Source: Todiramphus chloris collaris | Lineage: Eukaryota; Chordata; Aves; Coraciiformes; Alcedinidae | Length of the DNA stretch: 64,000 nucleotides | Direction of reading: 5' to 3' | Assembly: GCA_025345505.1 (NCBI GenBank) | Contig: JANVCC010000040.1 | Location: 7,897,655-7,961,654 of the forward strand | Part shown: piece by piece, positions 1,109 through 58,100 of the stretch | How the letters are laid out: each line of letters begins with the position of its first letter | Numbering within the stretch: position 1 is the stretch's first letter | Made by a program: the position numbers and the translations under genes | Notes under the pieces: generated by a model | The model's input: only the letters and a program-made list of their open reading frames with translations | The model's database searches: none | Told to the model about the DNA's origin: nothing

Positions 1109-9712
<8,604 letters not shown>

Positions 9713-17300: not shown

Positions 17301-19278
17301 AAGGTGAATTAAAACTTAACTGCCACTTTGATCTAATTGCTCTTTAAGGAGTTTTTCTAATATTAAAAGAATGGTTAACAGACCTGCTGTTCCAGACATG
17401 TGGCCAGGGCTCTCAGCCAGACTTGGTGGTGTTGTAGAAGCTTCACCTGTGACAGTTTGAGACAAGATCTACAGCAACATGGTGATGTCTTGTGTGGAGG
17501 ACTTGAAGTTTTCACTCTTCCCTACAAGGCATTGTAACAGAGTATCCAGATAAAGTTGTGATGCACATTAGATCCCAAAGCTCCCCTGTATTTCATGATA
17601 GGATGTTTTTCAGGTTGCTTCTTCAGCTAAAGAGGAAGGTCAGTTCATTAACAAAAGAACAAAAAAACCCGAACCATAATGAAGCAGGACACTGATGTGT
17701 GTGCGAGGAAGTGCTTTACAAAGCATTACCCAAGTACATCCCTTGCCTTATGCCAAACACTTTATATTTCGTACAAGTTCTTGAAGTTGGCTGGATAGTT
17801 CTAGAAAGGTCAGGAGGGAGGGAACTAATTAAACAAGACAACTTTTGTGGAAAGTGGGATAGAAGTTGAAGTTGTATTTTTCATAGTAATGAGGTCTCAA
17901 AAGACATGGGGGTGTGAGGGGGGCAAAGAAATAAGAAGAATGTAAGTGCCTGGAATTCAAATTAAAAACCTGCTCAGTTCATGATGCCTTGATGTGAAGG
18001 TAAGGCAGCAACCAAACAAGTTATGGTTCAACGATGCACTCACAGAGAGCGGGCAATGTGTGGAAGGGGTTGGCCAGGAGCACTGAGAAGTAAAGGGCCT
18101 GCAGCATTGACCTGAGCATGGAATAGGACAGGGCTGCTTCCCCCTCTGAATCTTGTGGGATTAGACTCTGGTTGTTTGATTCACTCATTCTTGATCTTAA
18201 AACAAGCTGCTTGCTCTTTTCTGGGGAAGGAGAAAAACATCTGTGCGGTTTCTGCTTGCACAGCATGAGCTGTTTTAGTGAGCTGCCGAGTTACCAAGTT
18301 AAATGGTCAGTCTTGCATTTAATCTTCCTGAAGAGCAAATAATGAACCACATATTTTTCTCATATAAGGCATAATTGTAAATTCAGTACAGGTTTAAGTA
18401 TACAAATGCCATTGATCATGTTAAAGTTCTTTTGCAGTGGGTTAAAAGAGCAGTAGTTATTTTCTTGATATTTAACTGTATGTGTCATTGATGCTGGTAC
18501 CAAAACAGTTAACACGTCTCTTGTGTGGAGAAGGGTAGCTCGGAAGAGGTGAGAGTGAGGGAGTGTGCCAGTGATGGTCTGAAGACTAATGTGTTCTTAT
18601 GGGAGTCCTGTAGTGAGGCTAATTATAATCCAGATGAGCAAATGGCTTTGGAGGAGACCTTCCCCTCCTCCTCCACAAATGAATATCCCTTCAGTGAGGA
18701 GAGGGGAACTGCACAACAACTCTGGATCCCAGGCCCAGGGAGTGCTGGGGACAGATAGAGGGAGATGCATCTGTGCTGTCTCTTCCTCCCCCTGCCCCCC
18801 ATATTCATCTCTACAGCTGATTTTGGGATGCAGGTATGACTGTCTCAGCACGCTCTAAAGCCCATGTAATACCTATGTGAATTCTGGAGTGGCTGGTAAA
18901 ACACATTCCAGCAAGTGAGCCATCCCTTCATTAACACCGCTCAGTCACTGATACATTTAGTGCATCAGTACAAGACTCAAGGCTAGCCCAAAACCACTAG
19001 GGTGGTTCCCCAGTACACTGCATAGGCTGGCTTGGAGTGCAGAGTGTCTCGAAGATATTTCCACTAGTAAGGGAAAGCATCCCTGGCATGAGCAGGGTGG
19101 TGCAGAGCTCCTGGAGTTCAGGGATCCCAAGGAGTTTTTATCAGCTGCTCACTATGGTTGGCAGCCTAGCTTTTACTGTTGGGTTTCTTGTTTCACCTCT
19201 GAAACGGGGGTATGTGCTGAAATTGGGATGTGGCCTTTCCCTCTCCTACAGCTCAGCTCAAACTGAACACGCTCCTGT
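14400..19278. other. Space between MAPK9 and the convergent - strand gene
   Basis: No gene was recognised. It is A/T-rich to about 17 kb and less so after that, with a GATA-type simple repeat at 17071-17095. It must contain the 3'UTR of the - strand gene that ends at 19279. A possible - strand ATTAAA signal lies near 18317-18322, but no AATAAA stands out close to the stop, so that 3' end is unknown. Confidence 0.6.
17071..17095. repeat. (AGAT)n microsatellite
   Basis: agataggtagatagataaat followed by agata, an interrupted tetranucleotide repeat of about six units. Confidence 0.85.
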
Positions 19279-19486
19279 TTATTTCAACCTGTTCATTTCC
19301 CCAAAGGTTTCAAAAAACTCTTCCATTTCTTTTTGGAGCATCTCATTTCTTCTCTCAGCGTCTTCCTTTGCTCTCTCCGCATTTTGCATTTTCCTCTCCA
19401 CCAGACTGTACCACTTACGCTGCTGTCCCAGTTTTGAATGCATACCCTTGATCTCCAACTGCAGCTCTCTGTTCCGCTGCTCCAGA
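19279..19486 (-). CDS. FilGAP-like gene, last coding exon
   Basis: A 208-base exon with an excellent acceptor (gtctgtctctccaacag, AG at 19488-19487). It joins in frame to the previous exon through a split Ser codon. It encodes SLEQRNRELQLEIKGMHSKL then GQQRKWYSLVERKMQNAERA, KEDAERRNEMLQKEMEEFFE and TFGEMNRLK, then TAA at 19281-19279. Conservation is strongest over the last 35 residues, the same part that is most conserved between ARHGAP22, ARHGAP24 and ARHGAP25. The uninterrupted frame, exact splice sites and family-like pattern argue for a working gene, not a relic. Confidence 0.9.
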
Positions 19487-20957
19487 CTGTTGGAGAGACA
19501 GACGGGGGAAATTACAGGGTTGGGGTTTTTTCCCTTCTTTCTTAATAAACCTATAGGCTTTTTTAAAGTTAGCCTTTTTTAACATATGTTCCTATAAATA
19601 CAAGTATTGGCATCCCCAGTACTTTTCCAATTGATGGTGTTATATATTAAAATAAAAGCAGCAATTTTTAGTTAGCCTAATTTACAATACATATAAATAA
19701 CCATATGGACAAAGGAGTCCGTTTGGGAGTGGTTTTTTTTTTATTGGTGGTGGGTTTTTTTGGGTTGGTTCTTTTTAAGTGGAATACTATGGTAATCTAA
19801 CAGCAGATGACAATGCAACTTATTTTAGGAAATGATGAGGATTCTGCTTATATTGCAGTTCCATTGAACTGCGAAGGAAAACATAAGCACAATCCAGCAC
19901 AGATTTAAAAAAAAAAAAAAAGGAAAAGGCTAAACCCTTAGGAACAGTTCCTTTACTAAGAAATTGATGAATTCTTCTTCAAGAAATCAGATTAAATGGA
20001 TGTTTTTTCCTTGCACAGTGTTCAAGGCAAAGCATCATTCAACCTTACCCACTTGCCATCTGTTGAAATGATGCATGTTGAGGTATTTTAGGTCCATTCG
20101 CATGGCATATCTGTAACTTACAGCCAATTAACAATATTATACTTAACGCTTGTTACTTTTTAACTACAAAGTAGAAAAGCAGTGTTGTTTGGAAAGCAGA
20201 GCCTGGAAATGTTACTGCCTTTTTGCTTTGATAATAAGCTCTGGCTAAATCTCTATTGAATTTCTAATCTTAGAAATTGGGAGAATACTTATGAATACTT
20301 TCCTCAGAGTTTTTAAAATTCATGACTTGCAATTTGTAAAGGATAATGACTTACTGCTCACACTGCCGAGAAGTCTGCACGTTTTTCCCTAGAGAACTTC
20401 TCAGTATTGGATTAAGGCAAAGGGGAGAAGTACACAATAGACCAGAGGCTTTTTGAGAGCTCTCTGCAGCCCTACAAAAAAAAATCATATAGATGCTTCT
20501 GAGTTTCTCAAGCACCCCATGTGAAAATGAATTCAAATAACTCTGAATAATTGCAAATCTAATCCTGTAATGCTGGATCCTGGGTGACATTCACGGTGAG
20601 TGGAAGCACTGACTGCAGCAGCATCCACATACCCTCCTCACAGCTAAGGACCCTGCAGTAGAGGTGCACAGTAGGAAGCCTTCTCTGAAGCCTCATAGTT
20701 TTTAAAATCCTTTACCTTGCAACTTTAGCTTCATACTCGGCCTTCTGTCTGGACATCAGCATCTTCAGGTTTGCCAGGTGGTGCTGCAGGGAGGTTGGGT
20801 TTGCAGGCAAGTCACTGGAGAAAGCAAAGCTGTCTCTGGTGTCCACTGTGTTCTCCTGATCCTGCAAAACGTGACTTAGAGCTGTGCTGGTTTCTTGGGA
20901 GTCTTCTGGGTGGGCAAGTCTTGTCAAATATCTGGAAGGAGGGTTTTCCTCAAACAT
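19279..20957 (-). CDS. FilGAP-family (ARHGAP22/24/25-like) coiled-coil C-terminus, two exons
   Basis: Joined exons 20957-20716 and 19486-19279 on the - strand encode 149 residues ending in a TAA stop. Residues 1-55 are Ser/Thr/acidic and low in complexity. Residues 56 to about 145 form a continuous coiled coil. The second half contains SLEQRN, NAERAKEDAERRNEMLQKEM and EEFFETFGE, matching the C-terminus of ARHGAP24 (SLEQRN, NAERAKEDAEKRNDMLQKEM, EQFFSTFGE) almost residue for residue. In that family the N-terminal PH and RhoGAP domains switch off Rac, and the C-terminal coiled coil serves dimerisation and filamin binding. Here the protein stops eight residues or fewer after FFETFG, without the longer tail of ARHGAP24. 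It is convergent with MAPK9, as ARHGAP22 is with MAPK8 and ARHGAP24 with MAPK10 in human. No PH or RhoGAP exon was recognised in the window. The N-terminal boundary is therefore open: Met at 20957, or a splice acceptor inside this exon. Confidence 0.85.
19487..20715 (-). other. Intron of the FilGAP-like gene
   Basis: A 1,229-base intron with a gtaaag donor and a pyrimidine-rich acceptor (ccccgtctgtctctccaacag). It is A/T-rich with an A run at 19908-19921. Nothing else was recognised. Confidence 0.8.
20716..20957 (-). CDS. FilGAP-like gene, exon with start of the coiled coil
   Basis: From an ATG at 20957-20955 this exon encodes 80 residues plus two bases of a Ser codon. It ends AEYEAKVA at a good donor (AAG|gtaaag, donor at 20715-20710). 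LQHHLANLKMLMSRQKAEYE matches the family segment before SLEQRN (LHSLVSSLKQEMTKQKIEYE in ARHGAP24). An in-frame TAA lies one codon before the ATG, so reading cannot continue leftwards in the protein without splicing. The ATG has A at -3. The alternative is an acceptor at ccctccttccag, with the exon then starting near 20933, which would join to an unseen upstream exon in phase 2. Both readings fit. Confidence 0.85.
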
Positions 20958-21540
20958 GGTTTAGCAGCGGGAGCTTGCTGAGCGTGCCCAGCCAGCACCG
21001 CCTGTGCCCTTGGGGCCTTCTCAAAAACTCGGTACTGTTTCTGTTTCAGAGGAGACCTTGTTTTCGTGTCTGTCTCACTCAGCCTTGTCACGGCCTGTGA
21101 GTTTCCTTCCCCCCCACAGCTGTTTGAAACTTTTCAAATACTTGGAAATAGTCCATTTTGCTGGAGCCTGGATCTTATTTCAGGCTCGAGCTTTGCTTTT
21201 TGTAAAGCAGGGGGTTGAAATCTTGAGCTGCTGTGCCTGTCTGCTGCCCGCTCCCCTTTATCGCCACGGCTGGCTTAGTCTCATCTCCAGGAGCTCCTCC
21301 TGCCCTCCCACCCTTGATCTGTTCAGTGCAGTTTGTCTGACATCTGCAGGTGGCTCGTTTGGTAGCTGTCCACCCTTGCCTAGTTCCCTTCCTGGGCTGG
21401 GGAGGTGAATTCCGCAGCACCAGCTCAGTTCTGGAGCTGTTCAGGGCGAGCAGGGTGCCTGCTGCACAGCCTGCAAGGACAGGGCTCCTTGTCTTCCCCT
21501 TCGCACACAGGAGAGATGCCTTGCATCTGCTTTGGCTGCA
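20958..21540 (-). other. Possible 5'UTR or upstream intron of the FilGAP-like gene
   Basis: The stretch between the candidate start codon and the CpG-rich patch has higher G+C than the flanks and no convincing coding exon on either strand. It would be 5'UTR if transcription starts in the patch at 21541-21720, or intron end if the acceptor inside the exon is used. Confidence 0.35.
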
Positions 21541-21720: not shown

Positions 21721-24700
21721 AAATAGGCCACTTGTCAGTTATATTTCAGTTCATCTTGGAAAAGCTATTTGATGTGAGTAGATACAGAGTGTTTATTTTA
21801 GCTGCCTGTTCTCACAAGAAAATCAAGCACCGTACAGAAATAGCTTGATTATCAAAAAGAACAAAATAGGCATACAGTTTAAATACATAGCTCAAAAATA
21901 ACAGAGATGGTTTCAAATGATCAAGAAAATAGTTTCCTCTTCCTGACCCCTGCTTGTTATTCTCTTGGCACAAGAAGTGAAAATCAGCTGGTTTAAGTGC
22001 CTTTGGCTTCTGGTAAGTGTTTTACTGCTCTCCTAGGTGAGAACCAGTCCTGGTTTTCACTCTGCATACCCAATCTGTGATGTGTTCCTTCTCAAAGTTG
22101 GGGCTGGGAGGTTATTGAAGACACTTTCCCACTGTAACCTGCACTTCCTTCAGTAGGAAGAGCAGAAATGAGCAGGCAGGTAGGTTAATATTTTAGCAAT
22201 CTCAACAAGGCCTGGGGTGAGCATTATATCAAGGAAAAAAAAGTAAGGCTTTAGCCTTCTGAGGGTGAGATGCTGTATTGGAGGAAGGAGGGAATCCACT
22301 AATCCACTAAAAATCCACTAATTTGACTTTGCAGAAGTAAAAAAATAAACTGATCTAAACACCACAATCAACACCCCTCTCTCCCCACCCCACACTGCAG
22401 TTGCTCCTAACCTAAACTTTTCCTCCAGAAAAAGATATCCCTGGAGTATTAATACCAATACATTACACGAGTTCTGTGTCTATTAATAATCTAACAGATG
22501 GCTGTAGTTTCTGATGAATTGGAAGTGGTTTCATTGATAATCTGTTTTCTTCGCAGCCCTCAGGAGAGAGGCAGCAGCTCTACCACCCGGCAGCTGGCTC
22601 CAGCCCTGCCTCTGTGGCACCTCTGCTCAGAATGGTCCCAGTGTTGCTGCCCACTGAGAGGCTGGTAGGGAGCAGGTCCGTCCCCTTTGACACATCAGGA
22701 CAGAGAAGCGCAACAGCAGAGGGGTCCCCGTTTGAGAGCAGACAGAGTGGGAGGAGCCTGACTTTCATGGTCTCTTTGCAGTTACAGTGCTGTCATGACA
22801 AGGTGTGGATTCAATTAAGGAAGTCAATGAGATACAGGAAACTCAGAGCTGTGCTGAAGACATGGTCATGGTCACCAAACCACTGTATTGCTGGAACTGG
22901 TTCAAGGGGCTCATTGGGGGAGAACCTTTAGAGGCAGCAGGTTTTAAGCACTTTGGACTGGGACCTGGGAGCAAGCAGCCTTTAGTCCCATGCCTTAAAC
23001 ACCAGAGCTGTGTGTGTTGGCACTGAGTGACCAGTTCCTTCTCTTCATACTTGATGATTCAAGGAAAGTGTAAAACCTCCACTCAGCTGTGGAGCCAGCC
23101 ATGAAATAAGGTGACCATGGGAAACGCTTGTGAAGGTCTACTGCTTAGTGCTCCTCTGCCTCGCTTTCCTTACTCATCTTAGCACTGACCTGGGTGCTTG
23201 CTTTAGCTCCTGCTCCTCTGGGAGAGCTCTCTTTATTTTCACGTTTTGCTAATTACTCACCTTGATGTTACCTTGGAGGTAATGTGCAAAGAAAACACAA
23301 TGATAGAGGGATGGAAGGAGTCCCCTTCCCAGCTGCCTCTCACACACGCTCACTTCAAGTGCTGGGGTGGCTTCAGAGAGATGTGAAGCACATCGGTGCT
23401 GATGCTGAAACCAAGTGGGGCTGAAAACGATGCAGCTTCTCCACTTTCTCCTGGAGGTCAGTGCTGGCAGTGGGGCTTTACAGCAGGAAACACAGCAAGA
23501 AAAATACTCCCTGGGTTAGAAGCTGACAGCTCCTCTGTGACAAGTTGTTAATGTGTGAGCTGGGCTGGCAGTGTCAGAGGGAAGAGGAAGATGAGTGAAT
23601 AAAAAATTACATTGAAGGTTGTTGCACAGGGACTAGCTTCAAGGATGGGTTGAAGCTGAGGGAGTGATGCAGAGGATCCTGCTACAGAAAATGATTTATT
23701 CATGCAGGAGACTGTCTTCTGCGTGTCCTGCAGTTAGGTCACAGACCCAGGGTATAGAATGGCTTTCTGTGGTGTGTGCCAGTACTGACGACAACTGATT
23801 TCTCAGAAATCACATCCCTGTGATTCTTAGACAGTCCTGTGACACCTCTCTTCCAGGGTGGCTGCTGAGCTTCAGCTTAGGAGCTCAGTAGTGCACCAGA
23901 GCAACATCAGTGGGGTGTGACAACTGGAATCTCATCTACTCTGTGGTTTCTCTCCTAATTACAACCTTGATCAGGCACAGCACCAGATAGTGTTGATTTC
24001 CTTGCCCCACACCCCTCTGGATTTACATTTACTCATAGGCCATGTTCTCCTTTCACCTTCCCCATGGCTTCTCAGGGAAGATTGCTTGTATTAGTTTCCT
24101 GACAATGTAAAGGTCAACAATGAAGAGAGCTGTGTATTTTGTTGCCCAAAGGAAGAGCTCCATTCCAGACTCTCAGCTTGCAGGGAGCTGGGATGTTTTG
24201 AAAAATTGTTTCTTATTTTGGACTGACTTGGGATGGAGCTTGTGATTCTCTGCGATGACCTCTCCCTGGAGCGCAGAGATGCTGCCATGTGTGGTTAAAA
24301 TTTAACATGCTTGAAATAGTTCCTCCAGGCGCTGTGGGATTCAGCCTCCCTCAGTTCTGGTCCTGTGCCAGCTGCCTGTTCCCCTGCATTGCCTCTGAGC
24401 TCTGAAAGAGAGACCAGGGTATCCTCACCTTGGCTTTTGGAGGGTAGCGTTTGCACCACAGACAGATAAGAAGTGACTGTTCCCAAAAGCATGTCAGATT
24501 GCCTAGGGATGTACATCTATGAGGTTACTGCCTAGATAAAACCTCATAATTTCCTTTCTACAAAAGCTGATGATAATTGGGCCTCTGTTTCTGTAAGGTG
24601 GGTTTATCAGCACTTTCTCCTCTTCAGCCTTGTGGTAGAGATGAGCTCAGTTGCCAGCAAGTGAGAAACCAGAGTCACCTGTGGGACATCTCCTTATGCT

Positions 24701-55100: not shown

Positions 55101-58100
55101 TACCCAAAAATTGCAGTCAAGGGATAAAGTGCTCGACTGGGCTTCAGGAGAATGGCCCCTGTCCTGCTGCTGGCTGCTTCCCCAGGTCCCCCCCGGTCTC
55201 TGCATCCTCTTTGTCTGTGGAGAGAGAAAATTAAATGAGGGCTGGTTTGCAAAGAGCAGAGCTGCAAGGAGGCACCTGATACTTCTCTTCTTCCCATGGA
55301 TCCTTGCTCACCTGGGTAGCATTGTCTGCTACTAAGGCCTATGGGATGAGTTTGTCTAAAATGAGGGTTATAAGGGTAAATGGCAAACAAATGGGGCTGA
55401 GCCTGCAGTAAGACAGGGCGCAGGAGAACACGGTGCCTTCCAGTCACTGGCCTGGTGCTATTCTGTCCTCCCCCCCAGAGCTGTGCCAGGCACAGTCCAA
55501 ACAGTGTTAAATCACAAGGCAGTCCCCTGCTTTCTTGAGACCAAGGTGACTGAGGGGTAGCAAGGCTTCATGAGCTGGATTTTGAAAATGCTCATGAGCC
55601 ACAAATTGATGCTGGCTTATTTCTGTGCACCCAGAAATGCTTCTCTGTGTTTCTCTGAGAGCTGTTCAGTGGGCTGCTCTGCAGAGAGTCACCTATGGAC
55701 AGGGATCTCTGTCAAACCAAGCGAAGGGTCTGACCTCAGCTTCTGCAGCCCAATGTGGCTTATTTTTGGAGTGTGACACAAGTGTGGCAGGGGACGTTGT
55801 GCTCTGGAGCAGCCTGTATGTCCAAGGAGACTGTGCCAGTCAGAGGTGATGTCCGGCTGTGAGCACCCCGGCAGGGACTAGCTAATCATGCCTCGGTGCA
55901 GTCCTTTGAGAGCTTTTGGTCCTTGTTATGAAGCTGTTCCCAAAGATGAGTGTAAAGAACCGTAAGCGCCTTCCTCCCTGTCTGTTTGCATTTGTGGGAT
56001 CTGACCTACTTCTTGTTTTTTATAACACAAAAGCCTCCCTTATTTTCTGACTTTGCAGCAAGCTACTGCAGGAGTGCTCAGGGCCTGGGGGCCATCACCA
56101 GCTCCAGGAGAGAATCCTGGCCTCTACAACCACAATAAGCTTCACCTTAGAGAAGCTGACCCCAGGGAAGGAAGGCAGTTTTTGGGGTGGCTGATGCATA
56201 TATCCATGCATAGCAACCAGGATGTGTTCCCAGCCCTTCTGCTCCAACCTCCCCCTCCTTACACCTGAGCTCAGAGATGTTCCTCCTGTGGTCGGGGCTA
56301 TCAGGGCTCAGGTGTTGCTGCCTTTGTGCAAAACCTAACGATGTGAAAACCCTCAGCAAGAAATTCTACAAAATCATACTTCTTGTGACCACAGCCTCTA
56401 CCAGTTTCCAAAAGGGCAGGGATGGTTAAACCACTGTGGGGCAGGGAGCCTCTTCTCAGTCCCTGCACAGCATCACTTGACATGGCAATACTGCAGTTAA
56501 AACAAGAGGTGAAATGGAAGTGCAGAAGCCACTCCTTGTGTGGGCTGCACCCAGGCTGACTGTGCCTTGGTGCCAGGCAGCAGCATGCTGGTCCTCTGTC
56601 TGCAGCACCAGCGTCCCATGGGTGTGGATGTCAGTGGCTGCAGCAGCCCCCAGGGGGAGACCAGTCTTTTCTTTGAGGACATACAGAAATGGAGCCATTT
56701 CTATGCTAGGAATTGTGATGGACACAGTTGGGCTGTGGTGAGGAGCCCCAAAGGACTTTGCAGAAACCTTTTGCTTTCCCCCTCTACTCATCCCACCAGC
56801 AATCCAAGGCTGTTTCTTCCCAGGGGAGAAACAGACATTATGAGCTCAGGAAAAGACACACAGGATGCTCTGAGGATTTTGGAAAGACTGAGCTTGAACA
56901 GAGAGGAAACATTAATACATGTTCTTTCCCCTCGTAAATATTTCTTCAAAAGACACTGCAGCTATCTGGGATGCTCCTACACAACAGCAAGTCATAAATG
57001 ATGGCTTTCTTCAAGCAGAGTAGACTGGAAGCTCAGTTAAATACATCAAATTAACTGTCAGAATAATCTTCCAGGACCTGATGAGCCTAAAGATTAAACA
57101 GCATGTTATTTCTTCTCTATGCTTTTTTTATCTTAGCAAAAGGGATTTACAGTAGATTCCAAAATCCATATTTTAAATGAATTGCAAATAGTTTTTGTAG
57201 ACTTGGCCCATATGAAAAGGATTATTACCCAAAACAACCCCTCTGTCAGGGGTAATGTAAGTTAAAGAGAAACGTGAATGTAAATAAATGTAAAGACTGT
57301 ATAGTGAATTCTGCAGGGGGCATGTTTATTTTTCTCTTTGATTCTCCAAACCTGGCTTCCTATGCAATTAAAGGGTCTAGCTCTTCATTGAAAAACATAT
57401 GATAATTTCTTTTTTTTTTGTCATCGGTAAATATTTGGTCTGAAACTGTTTAAACATAAGCTTTCAATAATCTTTGTTTTGCTTTTTTCCTGTTCCCTGG
57501 CTGATCCTTGGTTTGAATTTCCATAGACTAAAAATACATGATTTTGTTTGAAGAGCTTAGATAATCTTGTTCATTTTGCTGTTTATCTATTACCAGGAAA
57601 GTCTAATCCTTCTTTGACTGATGTTCAGTGTCACGTAGCTAAACAGTGATACAGGATATACAGCAGGGAGTTATTCTTAACCACGTTCTTCAGGTACCTG
57701 AAGCCACTGCTGACATAGCGCATCCACCAATATTAAATTGTATCACCCTAACAAAACCTACTGCTGCAGGTCAGGAGCAAAAATGTTAACAAATAGATGC
57801 AAAAAGGTGATAAAGGGCAGAAATGGAAGAGGATATTAGGAGGCACAGGGCAAAGAGAGATTGGTAGCAGTCAATCCTGATTTTCAAGATAACAACGTGA
57901 CTCTGAGGCACCATTCCCCACATTGTTCAGGCTTGAACACTGACAGGAAAGGAGGGCGAGTGCCCAACCTGTGATATTTATCTAGGGCTCTGGATTTCAG
58001 CTTCCCTTCTAGGATGTTTTGTGGGGAACAGCTAGTCATTTCTTTAAATAAATTAAAGACCTGTAAAAGAAGCAGGGAGAGGTAAAGAAAGCCAATGTTT

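Follow-up and report, generated by a model that had tools for sequence, protein, structure and literature searches.

Two exons beside MAPK9 in the genome of the bird Todiramphus chloris collaris resemble the C-terminal tail of ARHGAP22, ARHGAP24 (FilGAP) and ARHGAP25, which raises the question of whether they represent a fourth member of this family and, if so, which parts of the family architecture it has kept. The window, that is the whole stretch of 64,000 bases analyzed here (C24:7897655-7961654), belongs to an assembly of 1.17 Gb in 889 contigs, in which the genome searches were performed.

The tail gene and its relatives in the same genome

The tail gene consists of two exons on the - strand, joined at GT-AG splice sites into a spliced open reading frame (ORF) of 149 residues. 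A preliminary description of the locus had recognized this arrangement, with two - strand exons that splice in frame and encode the coiled-coil tail of ARHGAP22/24/25. The features of the tail gene and of the neighboring kinase gene are as follows (window coordinates).

1109..9712, + strand: 3' coding exons of MAPK9 (JNK2), with the stop codon TGA at 9710-9712
19278..19283, - strand: AATAAA hexamer, overlapping the last codon and the stop codon of the tail gene
19486..19279, - strand: exon 2, coiled coil and C-terminal EEFFETFGEMNRLK, with the stop codon TAA at 19281-19279
20715..19487, - strand: intron of 1229 bases in phase 2, with GT at 20715-20714 and AG at 19488-19487
20957..20716, - strand: exon 1, coding from the ATG at 20957; a divergent linker, then the start of the coiled coil
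20961..20963, - strand: in-frame TAA immediately 5' of the ATG (TAA ACC ATG)

In ARHGAP24, the counterpart of exon 1 is the 3' end of its large next-to-last exon. The in-frame TAA closes the frame upstream of the ATG, so there is no read-in from that side without splicing. At the other end, the AATAAA hexamer is a possible poly(A) signal or a chance occurrence. No CpG island was found in the window from 1 to 64000 (500-base windows, step 100, GC >0.5, CpG obs/exp >0.5), and thus no CpG-island promoter by that criterion. Searches of Pfam and the PDB with the 149 residues gave no family, the best matches being ATG16 (20.3 bits, below the cut-off of 33.7) and a PDB entry at an E-value of 0.34, respectively.

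A genome search with the 149-residue query revealed seven places: the window itself accounts for two, C113 and C148 for two each, and C74 for one. The exon-2 matches have E-values of 3.1e-19 on C113 and 9.0e-13 on C74; the ARHGAP25 tail at C148:426789 matched weakly (E 0.667), and the second match on C148, at 24138 (E 0.119), lies far from this tail. In all four genes (the window gene, ARHGAP22, ARHGAP24 and ARHGAP25), the tail intron interrupts the same codon in phase 2, which together with the exon-2 E-values indicates a family likeness well beyond chance. The near-identity of tail motifs noted earlier is also seen against ARHGAP24 of the same genome, with 18 of 20 residues identical in NAERAKEDAERRNEMLQKEM and 7 of 9 in EEFFETFGE. 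No stray relatives were found in the viral_contigs scan.

The gene on C113 is ARHGAP24, as its large exon, tail and first GAP exon are 75.6%, 92.6% and 97% identical, respectively, to those of a provisional human ARHGAP24 sequence. The genes on C74 and C148 we provisionally take to be ARHGAP22 and ARHGAP25, based on their adjacency to MAPK8 and BMP10, respectively, and on the character of their tails. GAP exons are present in all three. As separate ARHGAP22, ARHGAP24 and ARHGAP25 genes with GAP exons thus exist in the same genome, the window gene is, with high confidence, a fourth locus of the family, in agreement with the original proposal and independently of the outcome of the tail tree described below. 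The alternative raised at that time, that the window gene is ARHGAP25 in a different place, is ruled out: a separate ARHGAP25-like gene is present on C148 at ~15 kb from BMP10. A retrocopy is likewise ruled out by the retained intron.

Position within the JNK blocks and the tail tree

The kinase of the window is MAPK9, since its exon at 6710 best matches PDB chains of MAPK9. With MAPK9 on the + strand and the tail gene on the - strand, the two genes are convergent, their stop codons being 9.6 kb apart. On C74, the JNK gene is MAPK8 by best match and points toward ARHGAP22, with ~8.9 kb between the last coding matches. The claimed parallel between the two convergent pairs is therefore present in this assembly, as is the predicted GFPT2 gene near MAPK9 (C24:7870891-7882344, ~16 kb ahead of the first MAPK9 exon found). 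An exon at C24:8077649 on the + strand encodes a RasGEF, probably RASGEF1C. Two alternative MAPK9 exons sit side by side at 2246-2335 and 2546-2635 of the window; JNK genes possess a mutually exclusive exon pair.

Two other expectations on gene order were not reproduced. MAPK10 (C113:694725-718179) and ARHGAP24 (C113:503148-541982) are both on the + strand, and hence on the same strand rather than convergent, as they are in human; the difference would reflect either a local inversion or an assembly join. ARHGAP25, expected near GFPT1, is on a different contig from it: GFPT1 lies 134 kb short of the end of C76 and ARHGAP25 427 kb into C148, distances that make an adjacency of the two possible. 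C148 carries none of the 17 JNK-query matches. Human ARHGAP25 is on chromosome 2. C74, which harbors ARHGAP22 and MAPK8, also has GDF2 and a BMP3/GDF10-type gene (C74:1537783-1551262), and BMP10 (C148:411660-411962) adjoins ARHGAP25; these are further gene pairs common to the blocks.

The main text of PMC2453138, in which the term arhgap is absent, describes the JNK genes as part of a block duplicated in early vertebrates and assigns a fourth block partly to human chromosome 2. Within this JNK paralogon of MAPK8, MAPK9 and MAPK10 blocks, the window gene is located in the MAPK9 block. Regarding JNK neighbor and orientation, by which a JNK-FilGAP ohnolog is judged, it has MAPK9 as ARHGAP22 has MAPK8, whereas the ARHGAP24-MAPK10 pair differs.

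For sequence comparison, we used 90 ungapped columns anchored on the intron. The window gene shares 51 identities with ARHGAP24, 38 with ARHGAP22 and 24 with ARHGAP25; ARHGAP24 and ARHGAP22 share 57, and bird and provisional human ARHGAP24 share 84. In a maximum-likelihood tree of the tails, the window gene branched outside the pair of bird and provisional human ARHGAP24 (support 74) and joined ARHGAP24 against ARHGAP22 plus ARHGAP25 (support 80). Two other groupings were not rejected (AU 0.136 each). Obtained from 90 columns of vertebrate sequences that include one fast lineage, the grouping is tentative. It also does not agree with the published JNK tree as reported in PMC3202601, in which MAPK8 pairs with MAPK10 and MAPK9 falls outside. 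For a split older than the bird-mammal ancestor, the support is likewise the value of 74, obtained from 90 columns with a provisional human row and a fast lineage, in a grouping that differs from the JNK tree. The linkage of GDF2 and BMP10 was considered as support for the tree split and then set aside: pairs retained between blocks do not indicate which blocks are sisters, and GFPT1-GFPT2 would pair others.

Domain loss and sequence constraint

The preliminary description had called the window gene a FilGAP-type gene. This architecture was not recovered: searches for a PH or RhoGAP exon found none in the window or the adjoining 20 kb, nor did the assembly show a fourth FilGAP-like place. The window gene is a coiled-coil-only relative and not a FilGAP-type RhoGAP, and its PH and GAP parts have almost certainly been lost. 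We built eight models (PH, GAP and large-exon start) from the exons of the paralogs. As a control, these picked up the GAP exons and the start of the large exon in each of the three paralogs, and the PH exons where they lay in the fetched stretches; part of the sequences are the same and match by construction. Over the window (3340 frame pieces), the best score was only 11.8 bits (GAP1, 22032..21916, - strand). In random sequences of the same composition (n=12), this score was reached by 2 of 96 best scores over all models and by 0 of 12 for GAP1, and the candidate was rejected as a remnant GAP exon, being at chance level over all models. Over the next 20 kb upstream, the maximum for the eight models was 7.3 bits. 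When the genome was searched for RhoGAP domains (113 matches, with 150 of 198 candidates scored), the three known loci appeared and nothing in the window. A joined ARHGAP24 PH-GAP query, containing one PH exon, gave 18 rows (87 of 87 candidates scored), among which there is no fourth FilGAP-like place: 12 fall in the known genes (C113 five, C74 four, C148 three), and the remaining six (C31, C57 twice, C24:8409408 on the + strand, C58 and C637), at 33-52% identity, are in our reading other RhoGAP genes. Across these searches, the assembly yielded nothing that could be assigned to the window gene as a PH or RhoGAP portion.

Compared to ARHGAP24, which has the closest tail (24 of 29 residues alike in the last part, in addition to the core identities) and the same intron, the window gene has no PH, RhoGAP or large disordered exon found, and ends four residues past FGEM. 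ARHGAP22 shares the tail family, the intron and a convergent JNK neighbor at a similar distance; it differs from the window gene in its lower identity (38/90) and in possessing PH and GAP exons. ARHGAP25 belongs to the same tail family with the same intron phase, but has only 24/90 identities, carries PH and GAP exons, and adjoins BMP10 on a contig without a JNK match.

The constraint on the remaining tail is uneven. In the last 29 codons, where 24 residues are kept relative to ARHGAP24, there are 5, 2 and 19 changes at codon positions 1, 2 and 3, respectively (Fisher p 6e-7), and 16 of the 24 codons of kept residues are silently changed. The middle 36 codons have 13, 12 and 20 changes (p 0.06). 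At the end of exon 1, 9 of the last 25 residues are kept, with 13, 9 and 12 changes and no third-position excess (p 0.81); at the same exon-1 end, ARHGAP24 and ARHGAP22 differ by 8, 6 and 15 changes. Of residues equal in ARHGAP24 and ARHGAP22, the window gene keeps 19/22 in the last part versus 16/35 elsewhere (p 0.0024). The codon-position statistics thus indicate clear constraint only in the C-terminal part of exon 2. The silent distance between the window gene and ARHGAP24 is not computable, i.e., saturated. Gene conversion from ARHGAP24 is unlikely, as even the most similar part has differences at 19 of its 29 third positions. The window gene is probably coding.

The best-surviving rival, which we consider a real but rather unlikely possibility, is a recently dead relic: the PH and GAP exons were lost, then the function, with too little time since then for the tail exons to have been disrupted. 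The window lineage is indeed fast, with 22 unique changes against 3 in ARHGAP24 (outgroup ARHGAP22), or 8 against 2 with ARHGAP25 as outgroup. In neutral runs with substitutions only and no indels, the ORF was still open in 44, 23 and 6% at 0.05, 0.1 and 0.2 substitutions per site, and an intact ORF by itself is modest evidence for coding. Moreover, the pairwise codon tests also take in the ARHGAP24 branch, which is under constraint, and the period preceding any loss. These three points make a recently dead gene possible, and the exon-1 end without third-position excess and the window without a CpG island by the criterion used fit it as well. The ORF, the start codon and both splice sites are nevertheless intact, and the strong protein-level conservation of the C-terminal 29 codons means that death could only be recent.

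A longer gene, with a distant or new N-terminus spliced onto exon 1 and these two exons as its 3' portion, is quite improbable. An acceptor-like CCTCCTTCCAG does occur within exon 1, past the ATG, and ARHGAP24 has a PH exon 38 kb away from its tail exon; but neither the window nor the next 20 kb gave a PH, GAP or large-exon-start match above chance (the 11.8-bit GAP1 match being at chance level over all models), the genome search yielded no further PH-GAP place of FilGAP type, and the frame is closed by a stop ahead of the ATG. It is highly improbable that ARHGAP24, the closest paralog at 51/90, gave rise to a partial, lineage-specific duplicate that came to lie beside MAPK9 by chance, considering the 39/90 differences versus 6/90 between bird and provisional human ARHGAP24, the saturated silent distance, and a position that mirrors ARHGAP22-MAPK8.

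A GAP-less tail and its possible role

Most likely, the window gene is a duplicate from the vertebrate genome duplications that was reduced to a dimerising tail and still codes. We assign a rough probability of one half to this reading in its full form, in which the JNK-FilGAP block would have been duplicated, the fourth family copy would have stayed linked to MAPK9, and this copy would then have dropped its PH and RhoGAP exons to become a coiled-coil protein of 149 residues.

The predicted protein keeps the heptad hydrophobic pattern in the same register, at 15 of 24 a/d positions, a count reached in 1 of 2000 shuffles. In its filamin motif, F, T, F and G are kept, R occupies the V734 position, and the C-terminus follows two residues later. 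FilGAP residues are numbered here on a provisional 748-residue human sequence, which fits the numbering of PMC2654154. As reported in PMC2654154, residues 649-725 of FilGAP dimerise and residues 726-734 bind filamin A in a manner that requires the dimer; G730W or V734Y abolishes the binding, and T728V is stated to have no effect. With R at the V734 position, the filamin binding of the window protein itself is expected to be weak. The coiled coil of ARHGAP22 alone is reported to target Rab11 vesicles, and ARHGAP22 seemed monomeric (PMC4059726), so the family tail need not dimerise.

We tentatively favor a GAP-less partner of FilGAP, in view of the kept heptads, the partial motif and the FilGAP dimer data, set against the seemingly monomeric ARHGAP22; confidence in the mechanism itself is low. 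The gene would be transcribed, and translated from the ATG at 20957, and its tail might pair with itself or with ARHGAP24. A mixed dimer would have a GAP arm and an intact filamin site on one subunit only, resulting in a weaker avidity for filamin A, which in turn could alter the place where Rac is switched off. More doubtful still is the whole chain, in which the bird line would have retained a fourth FilGAP ohnolog over hundreds of millions of years as a natural competitor without a GAP domain, one that forms pairs with FilGAP and adjusts its filamin-A anchoring and Rac inactivation. More generally, such a tail-only gene may act with its relatives or block them, or may be slowly decaying.

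If coding, the window gene would supply the last of the four copies that two genome duplications should give for the JNK-FilGAP block, provide an example of a signaling enzyme cut down to its dimerising tail, and predict a testable FilGAP antagonist in birds; if dead, it would still be a clear domain loss in an early-vertebrate duplicate. In the titles and abstract starts of open-access literature on the family, on synteny and on '-like' names, no such fourth gene is named. It may already be labelled in gene annotation databases; we describe it here as a coiled-coil-only fourth member of the ARHGAP22/24/25 family.

The genome searches also yielded two observations on the assembly. C618 (3416713 bases) contains, at 55562-57355 and 763181-763756, matches including a 617-codon intronless open frame that is 39-43% like GFPT1; this frame resembles bacterial glmS, and the assembly may include a bacterial contaminant contig. 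In addition, equal or near-equal scores were obtained on separate contigs (C43:5465-9237 and C74:1537783-1543510; C4:2147167 and C5:2150222), which suggests unmerged haplotype copies in the assembly.
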